Assembly (NCBI GenBank): GCA_025463135.1
Contig: JAOAPY010000027.1
Location: 1 to 35,379, forward strand
DNA from: Acidobacteriota bacterium
GTDB lineage: Bacteria; Acidobacteriota; Blastocatellia; Pyrinomonadales; Pyrinomonadaceae
DNA: 35,379 nucleotides
Direction: 5' to 3'
The notes under the pieces: model-generated
Databases searched by the model: none
Told to the model about the DNA's origin: nothing
Seen by the model: only the letters and a program-made list of their open reading frames with translations
In this document: one piece after another, positions 156 through 23,545 of the stretch
Layout of the letters: each line of letters starts with the position of its first letter
Position numbering within the stretch: position 1 is the first letter of the stretch
Position numbers and translations under genes: made by a program

Positions 156-3100
156 CTATTTCCAATTGCCAATGAGAATAAACGGTGCCCAATAATATGG
201 GTGGCTGTATTTCGCGTTAGGGTTTGGAGTGAAAGTCTTCGGCGCGTTCTCGGCGTCGAGTCTGATCGAGGACCGTACTGTGTTTGCTCGCTGAGCGTTT
301 CTAGTGCCGCCTCTCAGCAGCGCCAGTTGCGCTTGTCGCAACGCCTGAGCCTTGTTAATGCTGCCCGGCGAGTCATACAAGCCATAAAACTTGACCATGA
401 AATCACGAGTGCTCGAATCAGCCACTTCCCACAAAGTTGCGATAACTGACTTTGCGCCTTCTTTCTGCGCCATCGCCCCGAAGCCTTCGACTTCAAGGCC
501 GTTTGACCGCTCAGTTCCGACCGCTGTATTGCAGGCTGATAGAGTCAGAATCTCGACGCCGCTGAATAGGCTCTGGTTAATTTCGCTGACCATCAGCTTA
601 CGGTCTTTTTCCGTAGCCCCGCCGCCCAGAAGCAGGAACGATCTATAAGCGTCGCCCGGCTGCAAACTGAAATGGCTGGCTACATGAACCACTGCGTAAC
701 GGCCAAGTGCATTCTTAAAACTCTCTTTCGTGAATCTATCGTCGAGAAGCTTCGTGCCGTTAATGACGCCCCTTTGACACTGGGGATGTAAGCTTACGGT
801 TTTACTCACCGGGTCGGTGATGATGCAATCCAGTTCATCGGGCACGGCTTTCAGCCCTGGAAAACCTTCAAAGTCTTTGGAGACTCCAACTCCGAGAGCC
901 CTCCATTTACTCTTGTCTGAAATCGACTGTTCGAGATACTTCTGGCTTGCCAGCGTGATGAGTACGTTTGCATAGCGCTCTGCCAAATAGTGCTGACCAT
1001 CCCAAAGTGCTGCCATTGGTGCGTAACGCAGTGTGCCATCCAGCGACCAAACGATTGTGTCAGTATTGATGCCTACGAGATCTTTTTCGATTGGCGCGAT
1101 AACAATATCGTAGAGTTTCTTGCCCGCATCGCGTGGGTCAATCTTCGGATTCATTACCGCCGCGCGAAAATCCGATACTAGCTTGTTCACCTCAACAGCT
1201 TTGATATCGACTGCGTGGGCTCGTTGACTGTCGGCTGTTGTAATGAAGATGGTCAACCGATCATCATCGACAAGAGTTGAAACGATAACGGTACGTCGGG
1301 CGTTCATGTCTTTAAGCAGGGATTGAAACCCTGACTTGATTTCCGCCACGCGCGCATCTTTCTGTTTGAATTTCTGATCCAGATCATCGAGGAACCTCCG
1401 TGACACCACCCGCGCGTCGTCAAGCATTTTATCTAACTCGTCCAACCGGGCTTGCTTCGGAAATGGCCTGCGTTCGTATTCGGGCCGGTTCCTTTCTTCT
1501 TTCAATTCGCCGTACTCCCTACCGATAGCAGTTAGTTTGTTCGCGAATTGATCATAACGCCCAGCGGCTGAGGCTTCATCGGGCTCGAGACTGACGGTAA
1601 AGAGCAGGTCCTTCGCGACCTGGTAATCTCGACGCAGGTATTGGAAGTACTCGTCCTCCTTGAGCATTCGCATCACTTGTTCAGCTTCAGGTATCCGGCC
1701 CTCAGTAGTCAGCCACTCCGCGAGCCGGCGGTAGGGCATTTCATTTTTCTTGGCGTATCCTCGCTGTGTTGCAACATCGAGGTTCTTAAGCTGCTGACGT
1801 TCGCGCTGAATGGCATTGACGGCTTGCTTCTCATAGAAGATTGCCAATCTTCGATTACCAAGTTCATCTTGAATACGCGCGATCAAATTCAGCGTCGAAG
1901 CATACCCTACGAGCATGGTCTTCTGATCAGCACCGAGCGATTGGTAGAGCACTAGCGATTCAGTTGCATTGTGAAGCGCTTCCGGCCAATTCTTCAGTTG
2001 AATCTGGACAAAAGCTAAGCCCGATAGATCACTTGCGAGATCCGTTTTTTGCGGAAGCTGCCGACCGATCTCCAAGGCTTGCCTGTAATACTCGTCCGCT
2101 TCACTCCAACGGGTTTGGTTTGAATACGTGAGGCCAATCGCATTCAAAGTTGTGTGAATCGGACCCACTGATTTTGTTGCACGGGCCGCAGTCAAGGCCT
2201 TCGCAAAATATTCACGGGCCTTATCGGGCTCTTCCAGCATGTTATAGATATATCCAACATTGATTGATCTTTGCCATTCGAAGTTGTCGCGATAAAAAGC
2301 AGACAAATTGGCAGGATCAACCTTGTAATCCGGCGGGAGAATTATCGTAGGATTCGCTTTGAGTAATAACTCAATATAATCGTCGGACAACAGTATGGAC
2401 AGTTCACGATTGAAGAATTCCCGAGCCTTTGATTGGTCGTTCAAAACGAAGTAGCTCAATCCCATTAGCCCCAGGACTGTCGCTTGACCGGGTTTGTTTC
2501 CGAGCGATTCATAGATCTTCAAGGCTTCATCTAGCGCTCCGCGCGCATGCTGGTAATCCAGTTCGCGAGAAGAATAATCGGCTATTTGAAGCAGGCATTC
2601 AGCCTCCATGCTTTGTTGACCATCAAGTTTGCGAAATAGCGCAAGCGCCTTTTCAAAACTCTCGATCGCTTTGCGGCGATCGTCGAGAGCGAAATAACTC
2701 TGCGCTACATTCTGCAAAGCCAGGGCCTGCTGTTGCCGGGCCATTATCCGAAACTTCTGGTATTCGCGTTCAACCTCTTCCCATTCGGCGACTGCTTGAG
2801 CGCTGTATTTCAGCCCTTGATCGGGCTTGTCCAATTTCGCTGTAAGAGTCGAACCAATTGAGTTGAGCAAGCTTGCCTCGCTCGCTTTTATCGGAATGCC
2901 ATTTTGCGAAGCTAGGGTGGCGCTGATTTCAGGGTTTCTTCGGATCTCTTGAATTACCGCCAGAGCCTGTTGATTGTAGGAGACACTCTCTTGCCAGTCT
3001 TTGAGTAATTCATATGTATTGGCAATTCCACCAAATGCCTGCACATCGTTATGGATGGTCGACGCCTTCCAATCCGCTTTCACCTCTTTGCTCAGCACAT

Positions 3101-3884
3101 CGCTCAGGTCCTCTTCATCGAGTCTCTTCATGAATCGGTGCCCAGCTTCAACGGCTTCAAGAAACTTTGCCCGCGCAGCCAAGACTGATTCGACAGTGCC
3201 TTGATTTCGGATCTTCTGCGCCTGATTTACAAGCATCACCGGAGCTAGAAATTGCGCGATCAGCCTTCCGACTCGCAATCTTCGCTCGGTCAGCGTGCCC
3301 ATCTCAGTGTCAGCCAATTCGTGCCAGCCCTTGTTCGCCTCTTCAAGTTTCGCCAGCCCGACTTCGGTCTCATCTGAGCCCGGCGCGGCCTTAGTGACGA
3401 CCGTCATGCCCTCCACGAAAAGTTGTTCGACATCAACTCGCCGTCTATCGGTCTTGGTCGCTGCATGCGAGGCTTCCCGACGGATTGAATAGTTACCCTT
3501 TGCTGATTTGGCATCAACTCCTGTTACCTCCAGTATGAAGCGTCCGGGCTTTTCCGCGACAAACGAAAGCGTCTCCGGCCCGCTCTTTCCGTTCGGACTG
3601 TCCATCGTCGCCACAAACTTGCCACCTGAATCAGTCAGCTTGAGAGCAACATCGACGCCTTTCTGCTCGACGCGGACCTGAAAGAACTCATCCTTCTGTA
3701 AGTCGACTTGGTAGCGATGCGTTTCGGCACCCGTAATTGTGCGTTCGAGAGGCTGGCCCGCCGGCAGTGTCTGAATTTGATTTTGAGGCGCGGTTTGACC
3801 AAGGGCGGACGCGTAGAGTCTAATTATTAACGCGAAGGCGAGTACGTATGCTCCACGCCGCAAAAAAGAGTAGATCGCTAGCAT
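156..3884 (-). CDS. Exported TPR-CHAT protease, last gene of the cluster
   Basis: Predicted exported caspase-like (CHAT, clan CD) cysteine protease of 1242 residues. The order is a hydrophobic signal segment ending near ALGQ, a PPC-like beta-sandwich (about residues 30-140) shared with two neighbours, a long helical TPR region, a charged coiled-coil linker, and a C-terminal CHAT domain. The catalytic motifs are present: VHVASH with His at about 1067/1071 and LSACNT with Cys near 1118. The protein ends in the HPYYW...LIGNW tail seen in all four paralogues. An in-frame TTG lies at 3902, but ATG at 3884 is preferred because AGGGGAAGAA sits just before it. That ribosome site overlaps the stop of the upstream gene (3893-3895), so translation is probably coupled. 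TPRs normally bind peptides or partner proteins. Substrate is unknown. Confidence 0.9.
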   Translation of the reverse strand: MLAIYSFLRRGAYVLAFALIIRLYASALGQTAPQNQIQTLPAGQPLERTITGAETHRYQVDLQKDEFFQVRVEQKGVDVALKLTDSGGKFVATMDSPNGKSGPETLSFVAEKPGRFILEVTGVDAKSAKGNYSIRREASHAATKTDRRRVDVEQLFVEGMTVVTKAAPGSDETEVGLAKLEEANKGWHELADTEMGTLTERRLRVGRLIAQFLAPVMLVNQAQKIRNQGTVESVLAARAKFLEAVEAGHRFMKRLDEEDLSDVLSKEVKADWKASTIHNDVQAFGGIANTYELLKDWQESVSYNQQALAVIQEIRRNPEISATLASQNGIPIKASEASLLNSIGSTLTAKLDKPDQGLKYSAQAVAEWEEVEREYQKFRIMARQQQALALQNVAQSYFALDDRRKAIESFEKALALFRKLDGQQSMEAECLLQIADYSSRELDYQHARGALDEALKIYESLGNKPGQATVLGLMGLSYFVLNDQSKAREFFNRELSILLSDDYIELLLKANPTIILPPDYKVDPANLSAFYRDNFEWQRSINVGYIYNMLEEPDKAREYFAKALTAARATKSVGPIHTTLNAIGLTYSNQTRWSEADEYYRQALEIGRQLPQKTDLASDLSGLAFVQIQLKNWPEALHNATESLVLYQSLGADQKTMLVGYASTLNLIARIQDELGNRRLAIFYEKQAVNAIQRERQQLKNLDVATQRGYAKKNEMPYRRLAEWLTTEGRIPEAEQVMRMLKEDEYFQYLRRDYQVAKDLLFTVSLEPDEASAAGRYDQFANKLTAIGREYGELKEERNRPEYERRPFPKQARLDELDKMLDDARVVSRRFLDDLDQKFKQKDARVAEIKSGFQSLLKDMNARRTVIVSTLVDDDRLTIFITTADSQRAHAVDIKAVEVNKLVSDFRAAVMNPKIDPRDAGKKLYDIVIAPIEKDLVGINTDTIVWSLDGTLRYAPMAALWDGQHYLAERYANVLITLASQKYLEQSISDKSKWRALGVGVSKDFEGFPGLKAVPDELDCIITDPVSKTVSLHPQCQRGVINGTKLLDDRFTKESFKNALGRYAVVHVASHFSLQPGDAYRSFLLLGGGATEKDRKLMVSEINQSLFSGVEILTLSACNTAVGTERSNGLEVEGFGAMAQKEGAKSVIATLWEVADSSTRDFMVKFYGLYDSPGSINKAQALRQAQLALLRGGTRNAQRANTVRSSIRLDAENAPKTFTPNPNAKYSHPYYWAPFILIGNWK

Positions 3885-3892
3885 TTCTTCCC

Positions 3893-6800
3893 CTATCTCC
3901 AATTTCCAATCAGCACGAACGGCGACCAGTAATAGGGGTGGGCGTAAGGCTTCTTTGGATCGTATGCAAAAGTCTGGCTACTGGAACCTGCGTTGACCCG
4001 CTGGGTGTTGCGTTCCTGATTTGTCGTCGAAGCTCGTTGAAGTTTGCCTTCGATCATTTCCTTCTGGGCCAACTGTAGCGCCTCAGCTTTGGTCATTTGC
4101 GGATTTACTTTTCTAAGACGATAAAACTCGCTCATCAAAAGCGAAGTGCTTACATCGGCGACTGGCCACAGGGTTGCGATGATTGCCTTCGCGCCTCTTG
4201 CTTGCGCCACATAAGCAAAGCCATCAACTTCCTTGCCCGAACTATCGCGCTCTCCAACCGCCGTGTCGCAGGCAGAGAGCGTCAGCAGTTCGACGCCGGC
4301 CAGAGTCAGCGATGGATTATTCTTGAGGTCGTTGACAGTTAAGATCGAGCCGTCCCCCAAAAGTAGAAAGGACCTACTCGCGTCTCCCGCATTTAGGCTG
4401 AAATGCGACGCAATGTGAATGACCTTGTAGCCCTTCGCAAGCTGCACCTCCATAGCTTTCTCCGTGAATCCAGCATTCAGCAAACTCTCACCCGGTAAGA
4501 CTCCTTTCGGCGATTGCTTGCTTCGTACGATTGAAGCCAATTCGAAAGGTACGGACGGCAAGGAACTAAAGAGCAGATTTCGCTCACCGAGAGTATCGCG
4601 CGCAGTTTGAGCTTCAGAGACACCCAACCCGAGCACATTCGGGGTCTGGGAAACCTCTCTGCCGATGCGTGTACGGCTAGCCAGGGTGATAACCACATTC
4701 TGATACTTTTGTCCGAAATACTGTTGGCCGTCCCAAAGCGCCGCCAGTGGCAACAACCTCAAATTCCCGTCCAAAGACCAAAGCAGGGTCTTCGCTTTCG
4801 CACCCTCCAACTCCTTCTCGATCGGTTTGATCAGAATGTCGTAAAGCTCTTTGCCTAAAGGACGAGGGTCAACCTTGGGATTCTTAACTTGCTCTCGAAA
4901 CTCAAAAATCTTCCGATCCAGATCGACAGCTTTGATTTCTCTCTCGCCGGCAACTCTTGCTTTCGGCGTGATGAGGATCGTGCGATAGCGGCCTTCACCG
5001 ACCAGGGTGTAGATAAAGACAAGGTCGCCGCCCCATTCCTGCATATCCGATTGCAAACCTGTGTCCTCGCTTACTTCCCCCACGGGATTCTTGATCTGCT
5101 TGAATTCCTCTGCCAGTTGATCCAGGAATTTCTCAAAGTTCGCGTTCGACTCCGAGAGTTTGGTTTCGAGTTCGTCGTAACGCTGTTCCTGCTCGCGTGT
5201 GAACTGCGTGCCGCGCTTCTTCAACTCTTCGAGCTTTCCCATCTCTACTGCCAGAGATGAGATGGTCCGCGACTTTTCCTCATAACTCTTGAGCGCTTTT
5301 GTTTCTGCGACAGTGAAATCAACCCGCAAGGACAGCTTGTCCGCGACCGATTTGTCGCGTCGCAGATAATCCGAAACCTCCTCTCCCTTGAGCATCCGCA
5401 ATACCTGTTCGGCTTCGATAATGCGCCCTTCAGCAATTAACCAATCGGCCAGACGGCGGTAGTGCTTCTCTTTTCTTTCTAAGAATCCCTTCTGAGAAAG
5501 TGGATCGAGATTGCTCAGGCGTTGACGTTCACTCTGCGTTGCATTCACGGCTCTCTTGGCATAGAAGATCGCGAGACGATTGTTGCCAAGATCATGGTAG
5601 GAGCGGCTTATCTCGTTCAACAGATCGCTGAAGCTAACTGAAAACGCTCGGCTTTCATCCACTGAAACCGATAGATAGATTGAGAGTGCTTCGTTTTGAT
5701 AGTTCAGGGCTTCGCTTGGCTTTCCTGTTTCAAGCAGAGCCCAACCAACATCCTTCAGATCGTCTGCGATGTCTTCTTTGACACCCTGTTTACGGCTTAT
5801 TTCAAGCGCGCGTTTGTAAGACGCAACGGCGTTGTCCCATTTTTCTAACTTGGCGAATGCTCTCGCTACCGCATCGGTGCTTAGCCGGGTGTTGCGAGCA
5901 TCCTTAAGGGACGGCGCAACCGCCAAAGCCCTTTCGTAGTACTCAAGAGACTTCTGGTAGTCCTCAAGCAGGCGGTAGACAAATGCAATACTGTCGAGCT
6001 TGGTATGTTCTATCAAAGCATCATAAAGTTCGTTATAGATGCCAAAACTATTGCCTGGAACTTTCTTCTTCCAACTGGCGGCAAAGTCCGAGGACTGTAG
6101 GATCTCCAATGCCTGGTTCCCGAATTCAGAAATTTTGGTCTTATCGTTCAACACCGAATACATCAAACCAAGCTGGCGCAGGACATCTACTTGGCCGCTC
6201 TTATCATCAAGTTCACGGTAAATTGCTAAGGCGTTCTCCCAGTTTTGCGATGCATGTTTGAAGTCATAATTCAACAAGTGTTGGATGCCTAGACTGTTCA
6301 GAGTGCTGGCGACGCTTCTACGCTCATCTGGCAGAGATTCATAAACAGTTAGTCCATTGGTTAAAAACTCGATCGCTTTTTCGTTCGTTTTCGATTCTCT
6401 GGCATAAATGAATCCTATTTGGCTTAGCGCCGTCGCTTCGAGGACCCTGAATTGGGTGTCCCCTGTTTCTTGAAACAAGGAGTGATAACCGTCAGCAGCT
6501 TGAGTCAAATACGCAATACCCTGTTCTGATTCTCCAAGAAATTGGTCGAGGTCGTGACCGATACTAGCTAGACTCGCGGCATGGAATGATTTCCATGTGG
6601 GAATAGTCTTCTTCACGTCGATGCCCGTGATACTCAGGAGGGTCGGATCCGCGAAGAGCTCCTTATAGACCTCAGCCGCCTCCTTTGTTGCATCAATTGC
6701 TTGTTGCCTCTCGCCAAGGTTAGTGTGCGTCTGGGAGATACCACTCAGTGAAATTGCTTCGCCAATTCTTGATTGAAATTCCAAGATCTTTAGAGTGTTT

Positions 6801-7648
6801 AGTGACTGGCTTGCGCTTTCTCCTGATCGGCTAATTGTATCCAGGGTGTTTTTGTCTCGTGCGCTTCTATTGACGCTCCGAAAGTCAGTCAGCGCCCGAA
6901 CTAGTTTTTCTCTTGCCGGAAGTGAATCCGCGCTCGATTTCGCCGATAGCTTTTGACCTTCACCTAGAAGGTTCATTGCCTCCTGGTGTTCTTTCTTTAT
7001 GCTGTCAATGATGACGCTAATTTCCGGCGGGACCGGGGCAAGCTGTTTAAGTTGTTGGTCGGTTAGCTGACTCAGATAGGAGTCTTCTAATTCATTCCAT
7101 CCTGTCAGGGCTTTCCTTAGCTTGTTGGCGGCAAGTTCCTTTTGGCCTTCGGTGTTCCGCGCCGCTAAGCCTTCGACAAACGCTTGTTCAACTTCCACTC
7201 GTCGCCGATCGTTGCCAGTAGCTGATCGCGAAATCGAACGTTTGATCGCGTAGCCGCCCTTCGCCGCCTTCGCATCAAGTCCGCTTACCTCTAACAAGAA
7301 GTTGCCTGGCTTCTCTGCGACAAACGAGAGAGTTTCCGGCCCCTCTTTTCCGTTCGGACTATCCATCGTCGCCAGGAGTTTGCCCCTTGCGTCCGTCAGC
7401 TTAAGCACGACATCGACATCCTTTTGCTCGACGCGCACCTGGAAGAATTCGTTCGCTTGTAGATCAAATTTGTAGTGATGCGTCTCCGCGCTCGTCATCT
7501 CGCGCTCGACAGTCTGACCGGGCACCAACTCGCGGATCTCAACTGGCGACTGGCCTAAGGTTGCGCGCGCCACAACCAAGACCGTTATGGCAAGCAGAGA
7601 AGGGAAACGTTTGCAAATACACTTCACGTTCGTGGATAGGTGGGACAA
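3893..7648 (-). CDS. Exported TPR-CHAT protease
   Basis: Second of three close paralogues of about 1250 residues. A cytoplasmic leader of about 14 residues precedes a hydrophobic signal core ending near ATLGQ. A PPC-like N-terminal domain follows (about 35-145), then TPR/helical repeats, a coiled-coil linker and a CHAT domain with VIHIASH (His about 1078/1082) and LSACDT (Cys about 1127). The likely start is TTG at 7648: an in-frame TGA lies seven codons upstream, no nearby in-frame ATG exists, and AGAGGT precedes it. A GTG at codon 8 is the alternative. It lies 70 bp downstream of the long CHAT gene and 8 bp upstream of the next one. The domain assignment is secure; export and protease activity are inferred from signal and motifs. 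Confidence 0.9.
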   Translation of the reverse strand: MSHLSTNVKCICKRFPSLLAITVLVVARATLGQSPVEIRELVPGQTVEREMTSAETHHYKFDLQANEFFQVRVEQKDVDVVLKLTDARGKLLATMDSPNGKEGPETLSFVAEKPGNFLLEVSGLDAKAAKGGYAIKRSISRSATGNDRRRVEVEQAFVEGLAARNTEGQKELAANKLRKALTGWNELEDSYLSQLTDQQLKQLAPVPPEISVIIDSIKKEHQEAMNLLGEGQKLSAKSSADSLPAREKLVRALTDFRSVNRSARDKNTLDTISRSGESASQSLNTLKILEFQSRIGEAISLSGISQTHTNLGERQQAIDATKEAAEVYKELFADPTLLSITGIDVKKTIPTWKSFHAASLASIGHDLDQFLGESEQGIAYLTQAADGYHSLFQETGDTQFRVLEATALSQIGFIYARESKTNEKAIEFLTNGLTVYESLPDERRSVASTLNSLGIQHLLNYDFKHASQNWENALAIYRELDDKSGQVDVLRQLGLMYSVLNDKTKISEFGNQALEILQSSDFAASWKKKVPGNSFGIYNELYDALIEHTKLDSIAFVYRLLEDYQKSLEYYERALAVAPSLKDARNTRLSTDAVARAFAKLEKWDNAVASYKRALEISRKQGVKEDIADDLKDVGWALLETGKPSEALNYQNEALSIYLSVSVDESRAFSVSFSDLLNEISRSYHDLGNNRLAIFYAKRAVNATQSERQRLSNLDPLSQKGFLERKEKHYRRLADWLIAEGRIIEAEQVLRMLKGEEVSDYLRRDKSVADKLSLRVDFTVAETKALKSYEEKSRTISSLAVEMGKLEELKKRGTQFTREQEQRYDELETKLSESNANFEKFLDQLAEEFKQIKNPVGEVSEDTGLQSDMQEWGGDLVFIYTLVGEGRYRTILITPKARVAGEREIKAVDLDRKIFEFREQVKNPKVDPRPLGKELYDILIKPIEKELEGAKAKTLLWSLDGNLRLLPLAALWDGQQYFGQKYQNVVITLASRTRIGREVSQTPNVLGLGVSEAQTARDTLGERNLLFSSLPSVPFELASIVRSKQSPKGVLPGESLLNAGFTEKAMEVQLAKGYKVIHIASHFSLNAGDASRSFLLLGDGSILTVNDLKNNPSLTLAGVELLTLSACDTAVGERDSSGKEVDGFAYVAQARGAKAIIATLWPVADVSTSLLMSEFYRLRKVNPQMTKAEALQLAQKEMIEGKLQRASTTNQERNTQRVNAGSSSQTFAYDPKKPYAHPYYWSPFVLIGNWR
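3901..3961. repeat. Near-identical 3'-end segment shared with 13998-14058
   Basis: This 61-bp stretch, the 3' end of the second CHAT gene, matches 13998-14058 at most positions, silent sites included, whereas the middles of the two genes have diverged strongly. It reflects recent duplication or gene conversion among the CHAT paralogues. Confidence 0.7.
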
Positions 7649-7718
7649 AATGTTGACCTCTTGTCAGATGCCTTGGACCGAATCCGGCGAAGTCGTTTTA
7701 CTTATTGCGCCCATTCAA

Positions 7719-10700
7719 TCAGCGCCAGTTCCCAATCAGAACAAATGAAGCCCAGTAGTGTGGGTGAGCAAAAGGCCGTTGCGGATCTCTTAGAAATAGT
7801 GGCAATTCCAACTTCGGCGCCGCGCCGTCAGACACTCGCACTGAGCTTCGCACTCCTGTACCGCGCGAGAGGCTAAGGGGCCTCGCCCCGAGCAGAGAGA
7901 GTTGCGCCTTACGAAACGCTTCACCTTTCGACGTCGAAGTGTTCTCAGAGTGCAGTCTGTAAAAGCGAATCATCAATTCGGGCGTGCCCTGATCGGAGAC
8001 CTGCCAGAGGCTGGCGATTACCGATTTCGCACCCAACTCCTGCGCTTTGTACGAGAACCCCTCAGCTTCCTTCCCGTTGTCAGTGATACCGGTGTCGCAA
8101 GCCGAAAGCGTGAGCAGATCGACTGTGCCGAAGAGGTTTTCATTCTTTTCCATTTCACCGAAGGTCAGACGTCCGTCGCCGGCAAGCAAGAACGAATCTT
8201 TCTGCTGGCCCGGTTTGAATGAATAATGCGAGGCGACGTGAACCACTGGATATTCCCCACTGGCGACCGTATTGAAGAACACTGTCTTCTTAAAGTTGTC
8301 GTTCAGTCTTATCGTGCCATTTAGTATGCCCTTGGCTGTATTCTCGCTTCTGACGATGGTTTCAAGTTCCGTCTTCACGCCCGGCAGAGCAGCGAAACCG
8401 TCTCGGCTCTCAGAAACTCCGACGCCCAGTATTTCCCAGTCCTGCCTATTTTCAGCCAGAAGAAATTTTTCGCTTTTCTCCGTGAACAGGACGTTGAGAT
8501 ATTTTTGAATTAGATACACCTTGTCGTCGTGAAGCGCCGCCATCGGGATGTAGCGAAGGACTCCATCTAGAGACCACATCAGCGTCTTGCTTCGATAGGG
8601 CGCGAGATACTCCTCAATGTCCTGTTCAAGCGTTCGCTTTTGTCGGGATGATCTTTGACGAAATAAGGCGTTATATAGTTTTTCTGCCAGCGGTCGAGGA
8701 TCGTACTTGTCTGTAGTGAGTGCTTCACGAAATCGAAACACAGTCTGATTAAAATCAGTCACGTCGATCGGATAGGCCTTATGCCCCTTTTCGGTCACCA
8801 TTATAATCCAGCCGAATTTTGTCTTCTCCGCTCTTGGGTCCTTCTTCTCGCCCGTTTCTTCCCCAGTACCAACGAGTGTGTAGAGAGCGACAACTCCTGA
8901 ATTCGTTCGCTGCCTCAATTCAGTCAGCGCGCCCTTCAGATTCTTGTTCCGGAAAAACTCTTCTACCCTGAGCCCCGCGGACTTTTCATTGCCGGCCAGT
9001 GCAGTCAGCGCACTATCAAGCTTTGCATTGGCGTCGTTAATCTTCTCAGTTAGGTCATTGGCCATTGCTTCCTGTTCGGGCGTCCGATTTTTGATCTTCA
9101 GGATGTCGTCGCGTCGACGTTCAAGAGAAATGAGATTTTCGATCCTAGCCATCGAATCGGTTTCGACTGCCGCATATGGAACGGTATCGCCGTTTTCACC
9201 GCTACGCGCAAGCTGCGAATATTCTTCGTCTTTAAGCAACCCAAGAACCGCTTGGGCTTCGATGAATCGGTCCTGTGAAATCAATATGTCGGCCAGGGTT
9301 CGATATGCCTCCTCCTTATCCTTGAGATAGCTGTGTTGCGACTCCTTGTCGAAATTCTTGATATTGCCGCGAATCGCCTGATAGGCGTTTACGGCCAGCT
9401 TGCCATAAAGAATTGCAAGCTGCGGTTTTCTTACTCCGTTTTCAAGATCCATCAGATCCTGCAGCACTGACCCTTCGAGTTTCTTGCTTTGTACCTCTTT
9501 GGCAATGGCTAGCGACCGGCGATAGTAATCTTCCGCCGACTTGTACCTTTTCAGTTTGAACGAAATCTCTCCCAGCCCGCGCAGGGCAGACCCTTCATTC
9601 CCTCTGTCTTTTACTTCTTGGGCCAATGCGAGACCCTGATCAAAAAAACTTTGTGCTTTACCTAACTCATCCTTCTTTTGGAATACGATGCCAAGATTTA
9701 CTAGCGGAAAGACTTCACTTTGCTTGTTTTTGAGTTCTCTCGCGACCGCCAATGACTGCTCGTAATAGCTAAGAGCTTTGTCGTACTGTTTTAAATTCAG
9801 ATATGTATTCCCCAATACATTCAGTACATTTCCTTCGTTGGTTCGATCGAAGGACTCCTTCATTAACGCTAACGATTGTTCGTAATTGCCTTGGGCTGTC
9901 TGGTTTTGACTTAAATCTGTATTAACTGTGCCAATTCCTTCAGAAGCAAATCCCATCAGCCACCTGCTTTTAGTCTCCCGCGCAATCGTTTCTACCTCCT
10001 TAAACTTGTCGAGCGCTTTTTCGTATTGGTTCAAACTGAGGTACAGGTGCCCAAGAGCGAGTTGAGCAATCGCTTGGCTAGTTCGATCTTTGGATTCTCG
10101 CGCTTTTTCTGCGGCTTGTTCGAAGGAGCTTTGCGCTTTCTCAAATTGACCAAGTTTTGAGAAAGTATTTCCCAGTGAAACAAGCAGCGACCTCTGCCAA
10201 TTCAGATTTCTGTTTGCTTTAGCTTGCTCGTACGCTTGGTCAAAGGTTTTGATTGCAACCTCAAATTGACTCTGCTGGACATACAGATTTCCAATGCTGC
10301 TGAGTATATAGATTGTCCGATCTGCAAAGCCGAGATCCTGGGCGATTCTTAACGCTCTCTCAAAAAACTCCAGAGCTCTATCAAACTGACGTTTCCTGGC
10401 ATACAACAATCCTAGAGAGTGGAGGTTGCTGCTCTCGTGGTCCTTATCCTTTGCGTCGCTGCTGCTCTTTAAGGCTTCCTCATATTTCTTCTGCGCTTGG
10501 TCGTATTGATTCGACCACAAATAATAATTTCCAAGACTACTCAGCGTAGTCTGGATGAGACCCTGGTTCCTCAGTTCCCTAGCAATAGTCAGGGCCTGCT
10601 CGCCCATTCCTGTCGCTTTCTCGTAGTTCTGTACTCCAGCATAATCCTGCGCTAAGACACTTAAACACTGGACTTCTTGAAATCCCAGGTTTTTCTTGCG

Positions 10701-12221: not shown

Positions 12222-12295
12222 GGCCGATCTCCGTTAAGTCATACTTCCTAATCAAGACTCGCGGGCAACAACTCTCGCTACCGGTTCACGTCGCG

Positions 12296-13312
12296 TTAGC
12301 GCCGGACGACATGCAAGTAATAGCGACCGACTCCTTCGGTTTGCCCGGCGGGTGTGACGCCACTGATGATCACTTCGTAATCTCCGGTCGGCAGGCTCTT
12401 CCCTGACACGGCGAATGTCACCGTCTGTTTTTCACCGGAAGACCTGGCCTTCAAGCCAACGTGAGGCGAACCCACGGGACTTCGATCCGCGGCTCTCAAT
12501 AGCGCTTGGAATTTCGAGAAATCACTCTTGGGGAAGTTCAGAGATAACTGAACTTGCTGCGCGTTGGACGGTAACACCAAAGTCTTAACTCTTTTTTCAC
12601 CCTCGCCTTTGGAGCCAGTCACCGCATAGTAGGCATCGATCACTATGTTGACAACGGGCTTATTAATCTCTTCTGGAAGCCGTTCCAACAGCGATCTCTT
12701 TTCTTCCTCCACTTTCGCCACTTGAGCTTCCGCTTCGACAGCTTTCTTGTTGGCTTCGTCTTTCTCTTTCAATGAAGATTCTGCATTCCTTTTCAGCTGC
12801 TCTTCAGTTGCACCTTGAGCGATCAGTTGACGATGCAATTCGCGGTTGCTGAACCACAGCGCGCCAGCTGTCACGGCAAACACTACTGAAGCGGCCATAG
12901 CTGTCCACTGAAACCAGGAAGGCATCGGACCTTGCGTCTTAAAACGCAGAATCTTGCCTGAAGTTGTCTCATCTGCGTTGGTAGTAGCGGCAGAGCCGAT
13001 AATCGTGGGCGCGCTCTGTTTGGCTTCGCGCTCTTGTTTCCACGCAATGGCTCGCACTGTCATAGCGCGCGCGAGTTCAAGTTTCTCTCTGCGTTCTGAC
13101 GAATCGAGAAAGTACTTCTCGAAGAGAGCACGCTGCTCGGCGGTCAACGCGCCGCTGGCGTAATCGTCAATCAACTCGTCCTCGATTTCCTGCAATTTGG
13201 CAAACAGAGATTCATCCTCCAGATAGCGTTCCTCAAAGCGACTCGCCTCTTCCTCCGGCAGCGCGCCGAGCAGATAGTCTGTTATCAGATCGTCGTGTTC
13301 GGGCTGGTTCAT
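12296..13312 (-). CDS. Membrane anti-sigma-like protein
   Basis: A 338-residue single-pass membrane protein, predicted to hold the adjacent sigma factor in the cytoplasm. Residues 1-85 are acidic and helical and look internally duplicated: DDLITDYLLGAL... at about 7 and DELIDDYASGAL... at about 45 align. There is no HxxxCxxC zinc motif, so it is not a ZAS-type anti-sigma factor. A linker leads to one transmembrane helix (about 133-154), then a coiled coil (about 158-211) and a C-terminal beta-rich domain (about 218-338) predicted to lie in the periplasm. The ATG overlaps the sigma stop by one base (TAATG), with GAGGAAA just upstream, which indicates translational coupling. Position and topology support the role; sequence similarity alone would not prove it. 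Confidence 0.72.
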   Translation of the reverse strand: MNQPEHDDLITDYLLGALPEEEASRFEERYLEDESLFAKLQEIEDELIDDYASGALTAEQRALFEKYFLDSSERREKLELARAMTVRAIAWKQEREAKQSAPTIIGSAATTNADETTSGKILRFKTQGPMPSWFQWTAMAASVVFAVTAGALWFSNRELHRQLIAQGATEEQLKRNAESSLKEKDEANKKAVEAEAQVAKVEEEKRSLLERLPEEINKPVVNIVIDAYYAVTGSKGEGEKRVKTLVLPSNAQQVQLSLNFPKSDFSKFQALLRAADRSPVGSPHVGLKARSSGEKQTVTFAVSGKSLPTGDYEVIISGVTPAGQTEGVGRYYLHVVRR

Positions 13313-13929
13313 TACATTTCCTCTTGGCCGGCAGCGAACTCGACACTAGAAAGGCGCTCAGCGATACACTCTCGGAGATTGTTTCGCAGCTTCCAGATTC
13401 GGTTGCGCAAAACACCACTGGCAACTCCGAGTCGCTTCGCCATCCTATCTCTAGTGTCGATTTTCAGCGTTTTGTCTTCCGAATAGTATTCGAGCAGCAT
13501 GGCTCGCGATTCCGGCTGCAGACGTTCAAGACATTCGTCGAGACAAAAATGGAGCCGCTCCTTTTTCCAGGCCTCTTCAATCTCATCAGGGTTAGCCCGA
13601 TCATCAGGAGGTTCCGGTTTATCATCTGCCAGTTGAGTGCCGAGTCTATTTTTCCTGCGGTACTCCTGGAGCACGTAAAACGCCACTCGGTTCAAATAGC
13701 CTTCATGGTTTTGCGCGGGCACGCTCTTGCCTTCGAGAAGCAGCTTGCCGGCGCGGTCAAACGTTTGATCGGCTAGTTCTTCAGGATCAGCACAATGATT
13801 TCTTAGAAAATATCTCGTCAGCCGTCCATGCAAGAGCACACGGGTTTCTGCAGCGCGATCCCTGTCTGGATCGAGCCACGCGAGCACCGCTTCAAAACGC
13901 GGACTCAGTAGATCGGGCTTATCCTCCAA
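13312..13929 (-). CDS. ECF-like RNA polymerase sigma factor
   Basis: A 205-residue sigma-70 family protein of ECF size. Residues about 10-100 fit region 2, with a helical DPEELADQTFDRA segment and a conserved-looking YLNRVAFYVLQEYRRK helix in the region 2.3-2.4 position. Residues about 130-192 fit region 4, with LERLQPESRAMLLEYY followed by a helix-turn-helix (MAKRLGVASGVLRNRIWKLR). The start is probably TTG at 13929; a better ribosome site and ATG-ATG lie upstream in frame but are cut off by a TAG at 13942-13944. The gene overlaps the anti-sigma-like gene by one base and sits 60 bp after a CHAT protease gene. Its regulon is unknown; autoregulation of this cluster is a reasonable guess. Confidence 0.82.
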   Translation of the reverse strand: MEDKPDLLSPRFEAVLAWLDPDRDRAAETRVLLHGRLTRYFLRNHCADPEELADQTFDRAGKLLLEGKSVPAQNHEGYLNRVAFYVLQEYRRKNRLGTQLADDKPEPPDDRANPDEIEEAWKKERLHFCLDECLERLQPESRAMLLEYYSEDKTLKIDTRDRMAKRLGVASGVLRNRIWKLRNNLRECIAERLSSVEFAAGQEEM

Positions 13930-13941
13930 TGTCTTCGTCGA

Positions 13942-13961
13942 CTAACTCATCATTGTTTCCT
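13942..13961 (-). promoter_or_regulatory. Ribosome site and ATG-ATG-AGT-TAG leader before the sigma gene
   Basis: On the minus strand AGGAAAC (13961-13955) is followed at correct spacing by ATG (13953), ATG (13950), AGT and TAG (13944-13942). These codons are in frame with the sigma gene, whose first usable start is a TTG five codons beyond the TAG. This could be a nonsense mutation at the native start, a tiny leader cistron for coupled re-initiation, or a sequencing error. Confidence 0.6.
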
Positions 13962-13989
13962 GCGAAGAAAAGCGGTTTCTCTCGCAACC

Positions 13990-16900: not shown

Positions 16901-17739
16901 GAAAGAAATCGTAAATCGTTCAGAGAGTTTAATATCTGTTGGGACATCGCGCCCAACCGACTTGCTTTCTCTACTAAAGCACTATCGTTTAGCTTTGCAT
17001 TGAGGGAAAGAGATGCTTTCAACGCCTCATTCAGCTTCGCCCGCGCAGTGAGGGAATCTGCTTTCGAGTTAGACGACAATCTTTGTCCTTGACGCAAAAG
17101 ACTACCAGCAGTTTGCAAGTCTTTGTTTAATTCATTAACAATGATCTGTAGCGCCGTTTGTGCCGTCAACTTCTCCATGTAGTCATCGGCCAAGTCTTTC
17201 CATCCCGCTTCTGCCTCAGACAGCTCTTTGAGGGCAGTTTCCTCTTCGCCTTTAATCATTACTTCTGCGATCCCTTGAGCGAACAATCGCTCAACCTCGA
17301 CTCGTCGCCTGTCTTTCGCCGTTGCTGCGTGCGGCGCTTCTCGTCCGATTGAGTAGCTGCCCTTGCCCGCTTTAGAATCGGTGGCGCTCACCTCCAATAC
17401 GAACCAGCCAGCCTTCTCCGCAACGAAAGAGAGCGTCTCCGGCCCCTGCTTGTCGTTTGGGCTGTCCATCGTCGCCAACACATTGCCGCTCGCATCCGTG
17501 AGCTTCAGCGTGACATCAACGCCTTTCTGCTCGACGCGGACCTGAAAGAATTCATTTGCTTGCAAATCGAATTTGTAATGATGAGTTCCTGCGCCGGCCA
17601 TCTCGCGATCCAGCGTCTGACCCGATGGCAACTCACGCGAGTCTTCTGACTGTTGCGTTTGGGACGCAATTGTTTTCGCTGATAATGCCAGCACCAAACA
17701 AACAATTATTATCAAGGGCGAGGTGTTGCGGAACTTCAT
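13990..17739 (-). CDS. Exported TPR-CHAT protease upstream of the sigma factor
   Basis: A 1249-residue paralogue of the two CHAT proteins at the left end. A classic signal peptide (MKFRN then a hydrophobic run ending near TIASQ) precedes a PPC-like domain (about 30-140), TPR/helical repeats, a coiled-coil linker and a CHAT domain with VHIASH (His about 1075/1079) and LSACQT (Cys about 1124). ATG at 17739 has GAAGGAAAG upstream. It starts 47 bp after the caspase gene and ends 60 bp before the sigma gene, so it is probably cotranscribed with both. Two residues differ around the active site from its paralogues (LSACQT, VVGKDNSG), but the catalytic pair is intact. Confidence 0.9.
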   Translation of the reverse strand: MKFRNTSPLIIIVCLVLALSAKTIASQTQQSEDSRELPSGQTLDREMAGAGTHHYKFDLQANEFFQVRVEQKGVDVTLKLTDASGNVLATMDSPNDKQGPETLSFVAEKAGWFVLEVSATDSKAGKGSYSIGREAPHAATAKDRRRVEVERLFAQGIAEVMIKGEEETALKELSEAEAGWKDLADDYMEKLTAQTALQIIVNELNKDLQTAGSLLRQGQRLSSNSKADSLTARAKLNEALKASLSLNAKLNDSALVEKASRLGAMSQQILNSLNDLRFLSKLNEGLSLNAIGQTYFNASERQEWVDYLKLSLVAYEDAIKLLHESNSPALNRNQKQYLLSLKDNEAGVLGNIGAALDTLGRPEEALTYLKQALEQIRALYQEPQDSQFTLQLKTKEATTLFQMGLAYSSEARNRKTAIDFYSRAIEVFRTLPNRKAMIARGLDLIGGQYQLDFEYDAALKNWDEALAIYRELNDMMGQAGILMGKETMYYILDDKAKVREIFTQLLPILTSQEYGEVFKKSVPWNPGDCGVCDEAMNNTSEFGRLDQLGLAYQELGDYDTAIEYYDKALMVHRGRKDSGGVRSELRSISNNYARMKKWDKALEYSKDALEISRSRTSQEAVADDAADVGLALLELGKTKEALTYQDEALSLYQSVGIGAGKVFSLSYVRLLNELARTQDTLGNRRLAIFFGKQGVNGRQGERTRLRRTFNIEDQKGFLRKIEKDYRQLADWLIAEGRISEAQQVLAMLKEVEVISYLEGDGAPTEEPRQSTTFDDEERTALVRYNALADKLTILGAQFGKLQTLRSSGVKLTPEQENTYKELSGQIEVASNGFQVFLKQLADEFAQRSKTREDLNETLALRSKLRSWGKGVVFLYTLAGDDRYRVILVTPDAQVDAKYEIRATELDAKIQKFRQAVENPRLDPRPSGKELYNILIKPIEKQLEGAGAKTLLWSLDGSLRLLPLAALWDGQRYFGQKYQNVTITLASQNNLSDPTNRNWQVLAAAVSQARKVQLNELGTTREVPFSALPFTLTEVRSIVKSSQSPKGVLPGQALIDGEFNEASLESQLLRGYRIVHIASHLNLDPKDATRSFLLLGDGSVLTVSELRNKPGLKLEGVELLTLSACQTAVVGKDNSGREIEGFGYVAQQRGAKAVLATLWGVADESTQLLMSEFYRLHKQNPRWTKSEALQLAQQEMLSGKLKPSASSNEERTTKRADASDANAPAFPFDPNKPYSHPYYWSPFVLIGNWR

Positions 17740-17786
17740 CTCATCTTTCCTTCAACGGGCCAAGACCGAGCACGCTATTTAATTTC

Positions 17787-20363
17787 TCATGGCTTCTTCG
17801 GCACACTCTGAAAGAACACCTGTTCGACAGACCAGTTAACCGGAGCGACTGGTCGGTTGCCGCGCGACGTTGATCCGATACTGGTGAGTAGATCCTGGAG
17901 CGGTGAGCTTGCTCTCGCTCCCCTCGCTCCAGCTTCGGACGTAGTCCTCACGCCCGTGCTTTGTAACACCGTAGGGTCCGGCAGAGGCTCGTCCTTTGGA
18001 GTAGTCAACATGACGTAGGTTTCAGGTCCCAACGGACTTGGGCTTTGGCACGGACACCGCGAGTCACCGGCGCAACTCGTTGTCAGATCTGGTCCGCAAA
18101 TCTTTATTTTAGTGACTTCTACTACATGCGTCGGCCGCTGATCGTTGGAGCTTGAAATGTACGGAAATGGCGTGTCTCCGTTATTGGCAATATCGGGATA
18201 CAACAATGTCGCGGTTCCACTACCGTCGATATCAAAGACATAAACGTGGCGTTGCTGCGGGGATGCTTGGAGGCGACTCTCGTCCGCGACCAGTGCCATG
18301 GTCAATATCTCGCCATCTTCAAGGGTCGCATTAGCGGGCGACAGCACTTCACCTTTACCGTTTTTCAAAACCAAGTGATACGCAAACCCACCGCTGTCAC
18401 CCTGGGGCGATTGCAACTTGATCCAGCCTCTAATACGGCCGAGACGTAGCGCGAGGTCTTCTAGGTCGATTGATTTCGTCTTCCAATCCGTTATGGGAGG
18501 AAGCGGACTGACTCCGGTATTCGCAGCTTTGATGTTCGTAGCATTCGTCTCACCGGCCTTAGCTACTCCGACTGTAGCGTCTGGCAGGAGCCAACAGTAT
18601 TCGAGCGTTGAGTCTGATAGCGCACGGCCAACGAGCCAGTAATGTGCTTCTCCGGGTGACTTGGCCAAAGCGATCACGCTGTTATTCGTGCCATCGCCGA
18701 GTTTGATTTGCCCGGCTAACTCACCAGAAGGAGGTAGGCTGTAGAAGAGTTTCGCTTTCGCACCTGAGTCCGGTAGTTTGTCGAGTACTGCTCTTGCGGT
18801 CAGCACCGCGCCTATAGTGACGATTTGATTGTCAGGCAGTTTGAGCAGCCAGTTCGCACCGTCGTGAAATAAGAAATGAGTAACGAGTTCTGTGGTCGGA
18901 TCAGCGACGATTTGCACTCTGTCGGATTGGCTCAGTCTTTCTATCTCTTGGACCGCCGCCAGCAGTTGCGCTGTACTCAACTTCGCAGGCGGAATCCAAA
19001 CAACCAGGTTGGGTTCGTCAGGAGCTGCCCACTTGTCAAGAACAAACACATCATTCACTTTTATCGTCTTGGCGATCCTCATTTTTGCGGTCGTGCCTTC
19101 TGCGACGACTTCGGCGATGCTTTTGACGTAATCAGGTTTCTGGCTGATGCGGATGCGTAACGTCGTGATCTTGCCTTCGTCGCTTCTCTTAATGAACTCG
19201 CAGCCTTCATTCAGACCCATCGCGAGGCCGCCTTGCAATGCAACGATGCCCTTTGAATAGTCAACGCTTACGACATTAACTTCGGGACGCTTCAATGGAT
19301 CGACTGATTCCCCAAATAACGACAACCCTCGCCGCGCAGCCGACCCGACCACCACCGGTTCATGCGACACATTGTGACTCTTCATCTGGACTACAAGCCG
19401 ATCGAAGATGCGGGCGGCGGAAAGATTGCCAGCATTCGGAGATTGAAGTACTTCAACGAGGGAATAGGTGAAGTTGCCACGCGGTATTGCCAGTTCGCCG
19501 TAATCATTCTCTCGGGCTTCCTGGTCGTCTCGCGCCGCTGTGATCACCAGCGCGCCGGTTCTTTCCAGATATTGCTGATCACTCTCTCCTTTTTGGTCCT
19601 GATCGGGAGGGGGTTCGGCCAAGTCGAATTTCAATTCAGGCGGTCCGGTTTTCGCTCTCCCTCCAGTCGTCACACCACCGCGAGAAATTCCTCCGCTGTG
19701 GCAACTATCAAACAGGGCGGTCAAAGTAACTTTCTTCGAGGCCTCGCGAAAAAGCTTAAAGATCTCTTTGTCGCGTATCTCTTTAACATCTTCGCGTTTG
19801 GCGATCGGGCGCTTCCAGTCGATGGGCACAAGCGTCTCGTCCAACTGGTCGGCCTCGCCTCCACGGGTATTTCGAATCTGTGAGCCGTGGCCAGAATAGA
19901 AAAAGAGACAGATATCGCCGGGTTGGGCTTCATCGATTATATAGCGCTTGAAGGCCGTGAGGATTCCGTCATGGGTCGCATCTTTGTCGGCGAGCACATG
20001 AACATTTGCCGCTTCAAAATTGAATCTACCGATCAAGAGTTCGCGAATCGCGCATACATCATTCATTGTGCCGAAGAGACTGGCGAAGCCTTCCGCCGAC
20101 CCTCTTCGACGGGCAATCTGCTTGGGCGCGGGCTTGCGAGTCGCTTCCTCACATCTGCCCGGCTGAAACTGCGGATCGTGTTCGTAGTTCTCGATTCCGA
20201 TTAATAGGGCGCGGCGAGTGGGTTTGCTTGTCTGCACGGTGGTGGTTCCAGAGTCGGTTCGGGTCGACGAGGCAAGACCAATTGCCTGCCCGGATTGAAG
20301 TCCTGAGGAGCCACACAAGAGGGAACCAATTAATCCGAGTACGAATGAATAGCGAGATAGCAT
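17787..20363 (-). CDS. Exported caspase-family (peptidase C14) protease with DUF4384-like tail
   Basis: An 858-residue metacaspase-like protein. A signal segment (about 1-30) precedes the p20-type fold from about residue 48 (RRALLIGIENY). The catalytic His is in YSGHGS (His159) and the Cys in DSCHSG (Cys221); DQLDETLVP (about 172-180) is the usual loop after the His. A linker region (about 350-640) leads to a DUF4384-like domain at about 642-745, recognisable by VYVFDIDGSG...LLYP, and a Pro/Ser-rich tail with a CxxxxxxCxC cluster. The start ATG has GAGGAAG at 8-nt spacing. There is a Cys at residue 17, but the preceding residues (SLL) do not fit a lipobox. Family members cleave after Arg/Lys or Asp; the specificity here is unknown. 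It probably heads the protease part of the transcript. Confidence 0.9.
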   Translation of the reverse strand: MLSRYSFVLGLIGSLLCGSSGLQSGQAIGLASSTRTDSGTTTVQTSKPTRRALLIGIENYEHDPQFQPGRCEEATRKPAPKQIARRRGSAEGFASLFGTMNDVCAIRELLIGRFNFEAANVHVLADKDATHDGILTAFKRYIIDEAQPGDICLFFYSGHGSQIRNTRGGEADQLDETLVPIDWKRPIAKREDVKEIRDKEIFKLFREASKKVTLTALFDSCHSGGISRGGVTTGGRAKTGPPELKFDLAEPPPDQDQKGESDQQYLERTGALVITAARDDQEARENDYGELAIPRGNFTYSLVEVLQSPNAGNLSAARIFDRLVVQMKSHNVSHEPVVVGSAARRGLSLFGESVDPLKRPEVNVVSVDYSKGIVALQGGLAMGLNEGCEFIKRSDEGKITTLRIRISQKPDYVKSIAEVVAEGTTAKMRIAKTIKVNDVFVLDKWAAPDEPNLVVWIPPAKLSTAQLLAAVQEIERLSQSDRVQIVADPTTELVTHFLFHDGANWLLKLPDNQIVTIGAVLTARAVLDKLPDSGAKAKLFYSLPPSGELAGQIKLGDGTNNSVIALAKSPGEAHYWLVGRALSDSTLEYCWLLPDATVGVAKAGETNATNIKAANTGVSPLPPITDWKTKSIDLEDLALRLGRIRGWIKLQSPQGDSGGFAYHLVLKNGKGEVLSPANATLEDGEILTMALVADESRLQASPQQRHVYVFDIDGSGTATLLYPDIANNGDTPFPYISSSNDQRPTHVVEVTKIKICGPDLTTSCAGDSRCPCQSPSPLGPETYVMLTTPKDEPLPDPTVLQSTGVRTTSEAGARGARASSPLQDLLTSIGSTSRGNRPVAPVNWSVEQVFFQSVPKKP

Positions 20364-20514: not shown

Positions 20515-21012
20515 TCAGGGGTCAAGCCTCCAACTGTAACGCCAGCCGCTATAGTAAACGGTTTGCCACGGTCCCCAATTCAAGGCCGATCCGTCGACAA
20601 AGTCAGCTCGTGCGTAAAGGGTTGTCGCCCCGTTCCCAGTGGCGAAAGTCATCGCACCCCAAGGGGCTACCGTTCCGCGATATAGTCCATCGACAAAACA
20701 GTTCACGACCCACGGAGTGAAATTGTTGAAGGTGACCTCGACATATCCCGGCCCAAGGCCTTTCCCCTTTTGGCCTCCCTTGTTTGGTGGCGCGGGAGTC
20801 TGTTCGCCGGTCTTGTCATTAGTCGCATCGGCCTTCTTTATGTTTGGATCGGCCGTAGCAGCCGGCGCAGAGTGGGACTTGGTTATCTGCGTCTTCACTT
20901 TCGCATTGCCAGAACTCACAGCACCTTTCTTCTGAGCGTTGGCCACCGAGATCGGCATTGCGACCAGAATCAAACTGAGCGACAGAAGCAAAGTAATCGT
21001 CTTGAATCTCAT
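20515..21012 (-). CDS. Small secreted protein, paralogue of 21204-21623
   Basis: A 165-residue protein with a clear signal peptide ending at VANAQ, a low-complexity Lys/Ala/Pro linker (about 28-90), and a C-terminal domain of about 75 residues rich in aromatics and glycine. The domain motif (VTFNNFTPW, C-FVDG, YAR-DFVDG, Y-SGWRYSW) matches the neighbouring 139-residue protein position by position. ATG has GAGGAG at good spacing. No family is recognised. It is directly upstream of the caspase gene (152-bp gap), so it may be a partner, an envelope component or a substrate of the proteases. Function unknown. Confidence 0.75.
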   Translation of the reverse strand: MRFKTITLLLSLSLILVAMPISVANAQKKGAVSSGNAKVKTQITKSHSAPAATADPNIKKADATNDKTGEQTPAPPNKGGQKGKGLGPGYVEVTFNNFTPWVVNCFVDGLYRGTVAPWGAMTFATGNGATTLYARADFVDGSALNWGPWQTVYYSGWRYSWRLDP

Positions 21013-21203: not shown

Positions 21204-21623
21204 TTATGCAGACATCGGAAAGACGTAGCTCCCGCCGGGCAAATAGAGCACTGGCCCGAGATCCCAGCTTAAAGGAGGTCGGTCTACGAATAGTGCCTGT
21301 GCATAAGGCCTGGTCCAACCGCTACCAGCATAAGCGGACAGGGTTCGCCCCGGATAAACGACGCCGACGAAATTGCCGTCCACATAGCACGTTACCTTCC
21401 ACGGCGTGTAGTTTTGGAAGGTCACAACCGATAGGCCAGAACTGGAAGTTCCCAGGATGCCCGAACTCGTAGCTGAAAACTGCGGACCCTGTGTGACCGT
21501 GCCGTTGATCAGCGCTCTGTTGATCGGCTGATTGTTCTTGGCGCTCGCTTGCCCAGCGAACAAAGTTGTTACGGAAATAATACTGATAGCCATTACTAAG
21601 GCGATGGTTTTGCGTCTAATCAT
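21204..21623 (-). CDS. Small secreted protein, paralogue of 20515-21012
   Basis: A 139-residue protein with a signal peptide ending near GQASA, a Ser/Thr-rich stretch (about 45-65) and a C-terminal domain with VTFQNYTPW, C-YVDG, a GVVYPG turn, YAQALFVD and a final GGSY. These positions are shared with the 165-residue neighbour, including the lone Cys, so the two arose by duplication. GGAGGAG precedes the ATG closely. It is the first clearly supported gene of the minus-strand cluster. Family and function are not recognised; the short beta-rich domain could bind a ligand at the cell surface, but that is a guess. Confidence 0.72.
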   Translation of the reverse strand: MIRRKTIALVMAISIISVTTLFAGQASAKNNQPINRALINGTVTQGPQFSATSSGILGTSSSGLSVVTFQNYTPWKVTCYVDGNFVGVVYPGRTLSAYAGSGWTRPYAQALFVDRPPLSWDLGPVLYLPGGSYVFPMSA

Positions 21624-22003: not shown

Positions 22004-22019
22004 CTCCAAAATTCCTCCT

Positions 22020-23527: not shown

Positions 23528-23545
23528 GACAGCCGAAAACGAAAC

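Follow-up and report, generated by a model that had tools for sequence, protein, structure and literature searches.

TPR-CHAT peptidases encoded beside ECF-type sigma factors and membrane anti-sigma proteins in Acidobacteriota: a possible protease-gated sigma switch

Genes encoding a divergent family of ECF-type sigma factors were found in Acidobacteriota to be linked, more often than expected by chance, to genes encoding TPR-CHAT peptidases, together in most loci with a membrane anti-sigma protein which is sometimes fused to the CHAT part. The presence of exported CHATs adjoining or fused to a membrane anti-sigma protein suggests an unstudied route of gene switching via an extracytoplasmic protease. 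The reading we prefer, to which we give slightly less than an even chance (about 0.48), is that of an ECF sigma switch gated by a protease acting outside the cytoplasm, in which the extracytoplasmic CHAT cuts the anti-sigma factor.

The seven-gene run and its products

The window, i.e., the whole stretch of DNA analyzed (35,379 nucleotides), corresponds to contig C55 of a genome of 6.48 Mb. Its positions 156-20363 carry seven minus-strand genes in the order caspase, CHAT4, sigma, anti-sigma-like, CHAT3, CHAT2, CHAT1 (Table 1). Since neighboring genes either overlap by at most 10 bp or are separated by gaps of at most 74 bp, the run is operon-like. A sequence-only reading had described consecutive minus-strand genes for a caspase, four TPR-CHAT proteins, and an ECF-like sigma factor coupled to an anti-sigma-like membrane protein, and this content was borne out by the open reading frames and by the Pfam and NCBIfam matches. 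The start of CHAT1 is ambiguous: an ATG located six codons inside the TTG may be the true one. The two small proteins encoded upstream of the caspase gene match no Pfam family; toward the C-terminus they share 39% identity across 76 residues (E 3e-15). Further along the window are found an apparent remnant of a WD40 protein and, on the other strand, an ArdC-like gene followed by a helicase gene, a pair that may belong to a mobile element.

Table 1. Features of the window, with their positions, strands and supporting evidence
Feature	Description	Position	Strand	Evidence
CHAT1	PPC-TPR-CHAT, export-type N-terminus, 1248 aa from TTG	156-3902	minus	PF12770, E 7.3e-56
CHAT2	PPC-TPR-CHAT, export-type N-terminus, 1251 aa, TTG start	3893-7648	minus	PF12770, E 4.7e-60
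CHAT3	TPR-CHAT, long TPR region, export-type N-terminus, 1500 aa	7719-12221	minus	PF12770, E 3.5e-44
Anti-sigma-like	membrane anti-sigma-like protein, 338 aa	12296-13312	minus	zf-HC2, NCBIfam antisigma, paralog alignment
Anti-sigma-like, beta domain	C-terminal, approximately residues 220-338	12299-12655	minus	profile
Anti-sigma-like, transmembrane helix	residues 137-155	12848-12904	minus	hydropathy 1.60
Anti-sigma-like, putative sigma-binding domain	residues 1-90, without HxxxCxxC	13043-13312	minus	
Sigma	ECF-type sigma factor, 205 aa, TTG start	13312-13929	minus	NCBIfam, PDB, family profile
Sigma, region-4 stretch	C129 to C188	13366-13545	minus	Cys counts per alignment column
CHAT4	PPC-TPR-CHAT, export-type N-terminus, 1249 aa	13990-17739	minus	PF12770, E 2.1e-59
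Caspase	C14 caspase-fold peptidase, 858 aa	17787-20363	minus	PF00656, E 1.6e-18 (Pfam)
Small protein	upstream of caspase	20515-21012	minus	
Small protein	upstream of caspase	21204-21623	minus	
89-aa ORF	resembles a WD40-protein remnant	21740-22009	minus	by eye
ArdC-like and helicase genes	ArdC-like anti-restriction domain protein, then 1492-aa Strawberry-notch-type helicase	22685-28092	plus	

The four window CHATs match the Pfam CHAT family PF12770 at E values of 3.5e-44 to 4.7e-60 and also carry TPRs. PPC matches were obtained in three of them (E 0.0012 to 1.6e-5), only that of CHAT4 being above the cut-off, and the N-terminal part of CHAT3 is PPC-like by our own profile only. The His/Cys motifs of all five peptidases, previously described as intact, were confirmed by a motif check: HxASH and LSAC are present in 4/4 CHATs, and the caspase shows its His in YSGHG (from residue 156) and its Cys in DSCHSG (from residue 219). 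Export signals had been attributed to all five proteins. Judging by hydropathy, this holds for the CHATs, the N-termini of which are export-type (clearly so in CHAT3 and CHAT4, fairly so in CHAT1 and CHAT2), and is least well founded for the caspase, which has the weakest N-terminus of the five. On the CHAT tree, the four window CHATs form one clade, as after a tandem duplication, and the number of proteases would then be a local matter. A nine-sequence CHAT profile (A8) matched solved TPR-CHAT chains (8d9f, E 2e-12; Csx29 7y9x, E 4e-5); the C-terminal 550 aa of CHAT4 as lone query gave no PDB chain at E <=0.01. The genome of the window carries 19 CHAT domains above the Pfam cut-off.

No Pfam family was matched by the window sigma factor at E <=0.01. 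Its matches with NCBIfam ECF-type models (E 8e-10 to 5e-7) are all below the cut-offs, and in the PDB it matched a SigE chain (E 1.4e-5); among 50 members of the family at E <=0.01, 23 match Sigma70_r4_2 and 9 match Sigma70_r2. Judging from these matches, it is a divergent member of the ECF sigma factors. Region 4 carries a CX3C...CX3C pattern, the four cysteines of which are present in 119, 125, 122, and 113 of 127 sequences; the window protein has C129, C133, and C188, and shows an Arg in the column of residue 192, where most relatives have a Cys. That these cysteines might serve as a metal or redox site is a guess. Used as query, the window sigma retrieved four paralogs from its own genome (E <=0.001, 28-36% identity); searched alone against the contigs of the genomes across the set it gave no match, and a 34-row profile was what found the relatives. 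Profile A1 has matches in 92/147 genomes of the class, a single genome having as many as nine family sigmas, and at a stricter threshold profile A4 has matches in 47/396 genomes of the phylum, 21 of them outside the class. One family locus (L169, QHBM01000069.1) is filed under Chthoniobacterales, owing to either transfer or mis-binning.

The anti-sigma-like protein of the window matches zf-HC2 (Pfam, E 3e-5), as do 16/37 anti-sigma members including itself, and an NCBIfam antisigma model below the cut-off (E 1.1e-7). The HxxxCxxC motif is absent from all the anti-sigma proteins (0/122); in passages of PMC7406223, this motif is described as common in class I anti-sigmas, and zinc-less class I domains as common too. 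The window protein has a single transmembrane helix, N-terminal of which lies the putative sigma-binding domain; the predicted beta domain sits beyond the helix, hence apparently opposite the sigma-binding domain. The earlier proposal that a coiled coil and a beta domain lie on one side of the membrane agrees with the hydropathy and the domain order, the coiled coil being judged by eye and by weak coiled-coil Pfam matches in a few relatives. The anti-sigma profile A2 weakly resembles CopC chains (PDB, E 0.016).

Linkage, gene order and fusions across genomes

Conserved linkage in related genomes, the lack of which the sequence-only reading had named as refuting its proposal, was found to recur over paralogs, genera, and classes, natural anti-sigma::TPR-CHAT fusions included. 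In the genome of the window, 5/5 of the family sigmas found adjoin a CHAT and an anti-sigma protein or domain. Besides the window, the arrangements are: clostripain-like peptidase, TPR-CHAT, sigma, anti-sigma (C42); sigma, anti-sigma, PPC-TPR-CHAT (C7); sigma, anti-sigma, clostripain-like, TPR-CHAT (C21); and sigma followed by a 1170-aa protein composed of an anti-sigma domain, a transmembrane helix, TPR, and CHAT (C32, L012).

In a first sample, consisting of the first 80 listed sigma matches outside this genome with a start above base 8000, a CHAT was present in the fetched stretch in 65/80 loci and within 1.5 kb in 61/80. The named sample of 80 loci gave 74 sigma ORFs (six loci were dropped), with a CHAT within 3 kb in 55/74, or 45/56 where both flanks were at least 3 kb long. 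When the loci were pooled and deduplicated by sigma sequence (127 loci, the five from the genome of the window included), a CHAT was detected within 3 kb in 99 and was absent in 19, nine loci with short flanks being set aside (99/118); these samples overlap in genomes, include many MAGs and are not independent. To counter the bias toward high scores, a further 40 loci were fetched, 24 of them outside the class and 16 lower-scoring ones within it, and two were dropped for lack of a sigma ORF: a CHAT occurs within 3 kb in 16/23 loci outside the class, a sample overlapping the named one (the contigs of L278/L181 and L282/L206 recur), and in 9/15 low-scoring loci in the class.

The CHAT-sigma linkage exceeds chance. 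When four genomes were examined for a CHAT domain at a distance of up to 5 kb, one was present for 15/16 family sigmas vs. 9/138 other ECF-model matches (Fisher p 8e-14), the 16 being the family sigmas among the matches listed, out of 21 in these genomes. Since unlisted family sigmas may sit among the 138, the control is conservative. At the genome level, a family sigma is present in 91/137 genomes carrying a CHAT vs. 1/10 of those without (p 6e-4, kinship ignored). In the genome of locus L315 (G022:C36), which has no CHAT match at E <=1e-10, the sigma/anti-sigma pair adjoins an oppositely oriented C11-like ORF.

The 99 CHAT-linked loci contain 101 CHAT domains within 3 kb of the sigma gene, and the CHAT is located upstream in 38 loci, downstream in 32, fused in 21, and on the other strand in 8. 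The catalytic residues are kept in almost all these domains (His in 99/101, Cys in 100/101). Among the separate CHATs, 58/79 have an N-terminal hydrophobic segment and 19/79 a C-terminal transmembrane segment, often with a basic tail; in the 21/79 lacking the N-terminal segment as called, some of the starts may be wrong. One TPR-CHAT (L013:9230-12091) shows an export-type N-terminus and a C-terminal transmembrane segment followed by RRRRR. A same-strand gene of at least 200 aa lies close upstream of the CHAT in 19/38 upstream-type loci: ten of these neighbors match Peptidase_C11 and one, that of the window, C14. Such a peptidase is a recurring partner, which in the window takes the form of a C14 caspase; the C11 clostripain-type was commoner among the 19 neighbors scanned.

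As regards the anti-sigma side, a transmembrane helix was detected by hydropathy in 21/21 fusions and 70/76 separate proteins. The beta domain is present in 65/76 separate anti-sigmas near a CHAT and in 0/21 fusions, and three of the 11 separate proteins near a CHAT that lack it are split fusions (L058, L063, L065), which hints that beta domain and CHAT replace each other. The beta domain is still present in 11/18 anti-sigmas from loci without CHAT and therefore does not serve only a neighboring CHAT.

Gene order varies. On the tree of 118 sigmas, the five arrangement labels (upstream, downstream, fused, opposite strand, none; four split fusions scored as fused) need 28 changes vs. 66.5 in shuffles; the exact number of changes is unsure, the trees being quick ones with long branches, and with support modest (21/115 inner branches starred) the starred branches alone force 2-5 changes per label. 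In the 21 fused loci, a single polypeptide comprises the anti-sigma domain, the transmembrane helix, the TPR region, and the CHAT. An AU test rejects a single clade for the sigmas of the fused and split-fused loci (p 1.3e-4), but on the CHAT tree just 3 changes account for the fused CHATs. Fusion may thus have happened in one event or a small number of events; many independent fusions are not claimed here, since with so few changes on the CHAT tree a swap of sigma partners, or fission, would explain the pattern equally well. A scan of 18 genes downstream of the 21 fusions for a known effector gave one marginal Pfam match.

In the C32-type fusion gene, a T9/T10 tract is conserved in six genomes (L012:7378-7387 in the genome of the window; L063, L058, L065, L087, and L217 elsewhere). 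The gene is in frame across the tract in the genome of the window (T10) and in G147 (T9), and in G120, G002, G143, and G094 a T9 tract marks the shift of the CHAT part to the -1 frame. In G094, where both parts of the fusion have 70% GC, there are 53 TTC vs. 4 TTT codons, two of the latter being inside the tract; in G143 and G002, the tract stands out less, TTT being frequent in other places as well. The tract is a candidate for programmed slippage or phase variation; slippage, phase variation, and decay at a fragile site are all compatible with the pattern, and an assembly error at the same place in four genomes is unlikely.

A possible switch and the competing explanations

The observed basis of the proposed switch consists of the genes and their domains, the intact dyads, the linkage, the fusions, the topology by hydropathy, and the M50 protease genes, of which there are six matches in the genome of the window, two of them apparently in one ORF. 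As to contact, cleavage, order of events, signal, and regulon, we propose the following scheme. The sigma factor would be held by the N-terminal domain of the membrane anti-sigma protein, and the TPR-CHAT would sit on the outside of this membrane, either free with a PPC part as in the window, held by a C-terminal transmembrane segment, or fused to the transmembrane helix of the anti-sigma. Either the TPR/PPC part would sense an envelope signal or a neighboring caspase or clostripain-type peptidase would activate the CHAT, which would then cut the extracytoplasmic part of the anti-sigma: its beta domain or stalk if the proteins are separate, its own tether if they are fused. An M50 protease and cytosolic proteases would complete the degradation and free the sigma factor. 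The extracytoplasmic CHAT would thus be the input inactivating the anti-sigma, in the manner of DegS and with a caspase fold. Cutting is favored here on indirect grounds: the dyad is near-invariant and, by analogy, the same logic has been documented in Csx29/Csx30 and CalpL/CalpT.

This near-invariance bears on another explanation, in which the TPR-CHAT would bind a ligand and shift the conformation of the anti-sigma without cutting it, the peptidase having other targets. TPR and PPC are commonly binding modules, the fused and separate forms both permit contact, and binding without cutting would be consistent with the observed gene arrangements too. A pure receptor would nevertheless tolerate loss of the dyad, and we regard this explanation as improbable.

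The fusions matter for the two others. The CHAT and caspase genes might be output, i.e., a co-regulated regulon of a sigma factor freed by some other signal acting via the beta domain. ECF sigma factors often control adjacent genes, the seven window genes are arranged like a single operon, and the beta domain also occurs in loci without CHAT, as noted above. Motifs of CASP-sigma also sit in its own locus, according to parts of PMC10028731. A covalent anti-sigma::CHAT fusion is hard to explain by co-regulation alone, however, and no convincing shared motif was found upstream of 116 first genes by gapped-dyad searches and 6- to 8-mer enrichment; the best word, GTGTTTGT, occurred in 5/97 vs. 0/768 among many words and groups tried. 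The sequence-only reading had alternatively suggested that the sigma factor drives the protease genes: these motif searches, crude as they are, lent this no support, and we regard the output explanation as unlikely. It is very improbable that the CHAT, caspase, and clostripain-type peptidases are extracytoplasmic effectors of killing, predation, or defense, with the sigma/anti-sigma pair providing only the timing. Several peptidases per cluster and a C11 or C14 gene upstream of the CHAT (11/19 neighbors scanned) speak for it; the fusion, which binds one CHAT to one anti-sigma, speaks against it, as does the PADLOC result, which apart from TPR and caspase models comprised just marginal matches with C3a156 and PD-T7-3 (E 0.002-0.008).

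If the protease-gated switch is real, caspase-fold proteases, which in bacteria are known mostly from death and CRISPR contexts, also transduce envelope signals, and the abundant CHAT family, carried by 137/147 genomes of the class, acquires a role. The cis fusions mean that one protein suffices to ask whether a CHAT cuts an anti-sigma.

A cytosolic module and the comparison with known systems

Contig C53 of the same genome carries (L021:4582-8684) a canonical ECF sigma, a short anti-sigma without a transmembrane helix (best 19-residue hydropathy 1.1; beta domain judged by eye), and a TPR-CHAT that lacks an export segment and whose CHAT matches solved TPR-CHAT/Csx29 chains (7zoq, E 1.6e-4; 7y9x, E 3.2e-4). 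Its anti-sigma has matches in 55/147 genomes, and in the 30 best loci of this type (L246-L275) the sigma is adjacent in 28 and a TPR-CHAT relative in 29, the fetched loci being too short to display the CHAT domain itself. Based on these sequence features, the module looks cytosolic, with a conserved gene order, and nearer to Craspase than the window switch is. A wider scheme, in which the caspase-fold CHATs of Acidobacteriota are general extracytoplasmic gatekeepers of membrane anti-sigmas in trans or in cis, the cytosolic module is a parallel, Craspase is its CRISPR-coupled cousin, and poly-T slippage sets the ratio of bare to fused protein in one lineage, is tentative and, taken as a whole, rather doubtful. 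If it holds, Craspase gains an evolutionary setting, CHAT-linked sigma/anti-sigma pairs being widespread without CRISPR.

Among the known systems, those of the RseA/DegS/RseP type resemble the window in their membrane anti-sigma with the sigma-binding domain first, the cut outside, which in the window is proposed, and the M50 protease encoded. DegS is a serine PDZ protease, whereas the partner protease in the window has a caspase fold and is sometimes, in the family, fused to the anti-sigma. SAVED-CHAT works with a caspase partner. As described in parts of PMC11229360, it shares with the window a CHAT protease in a proteolytic cascade. The window differs from it by its export-type N-termini and the lack of a RAMP gene and of any SAVED match, none being found by Pfam in CHAT1, CHAT2, and CHAT4 or among the best 25 of 26 matches of CHAT3. 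CalpL/CalpT/CalpS also differs, since its protease is of the SAVED-Lon kind, responds to cA4, and operates within type III CRISPR (PMC11417357, in part).

That CHATs beside ECF sigmas outside CRISPR are absent from the literature would be wrong: passages of PMC8999054 describe the ECF54 group, in which CHAT, subtilase, and carboxypeptidase genes form a conserved context without an anti-sigma, and proteolytic control has been proposed. ECF54 shares the CHAT in a sigma context, whereas the window family, unlike ECF54 as described, has a membrane anti-sigma in most loci, sometimes fused to the CHAT. In the excerpts of open-licence literature searched, no membrane anti-sigma with an exported CHAT was found, and those of PMC8103513 hold nothing on CHAT.

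The comparison with Craspase had been put forward from the start, as its logic possibly recurring without CRISPR. Membership in that system is rejected: PF03787 (RAMP, Cas7-11) has 0 matches in the genome and none in 17 window proteins, and at the sequence level no Csx30 chain occurs among the PDB matches of profile A2 up to E 1. The logic itself is the same. Craspase (Csx29, Csx30, CASP-sigma), as described in parts of PMC10028731, shares with the window a TPR-CHAT, an anti-sigma protein, and an ECF sigma in one locus, and the window is unlike it in that its anti-sigma has a transmembrane helix and its CHATs are export-type.
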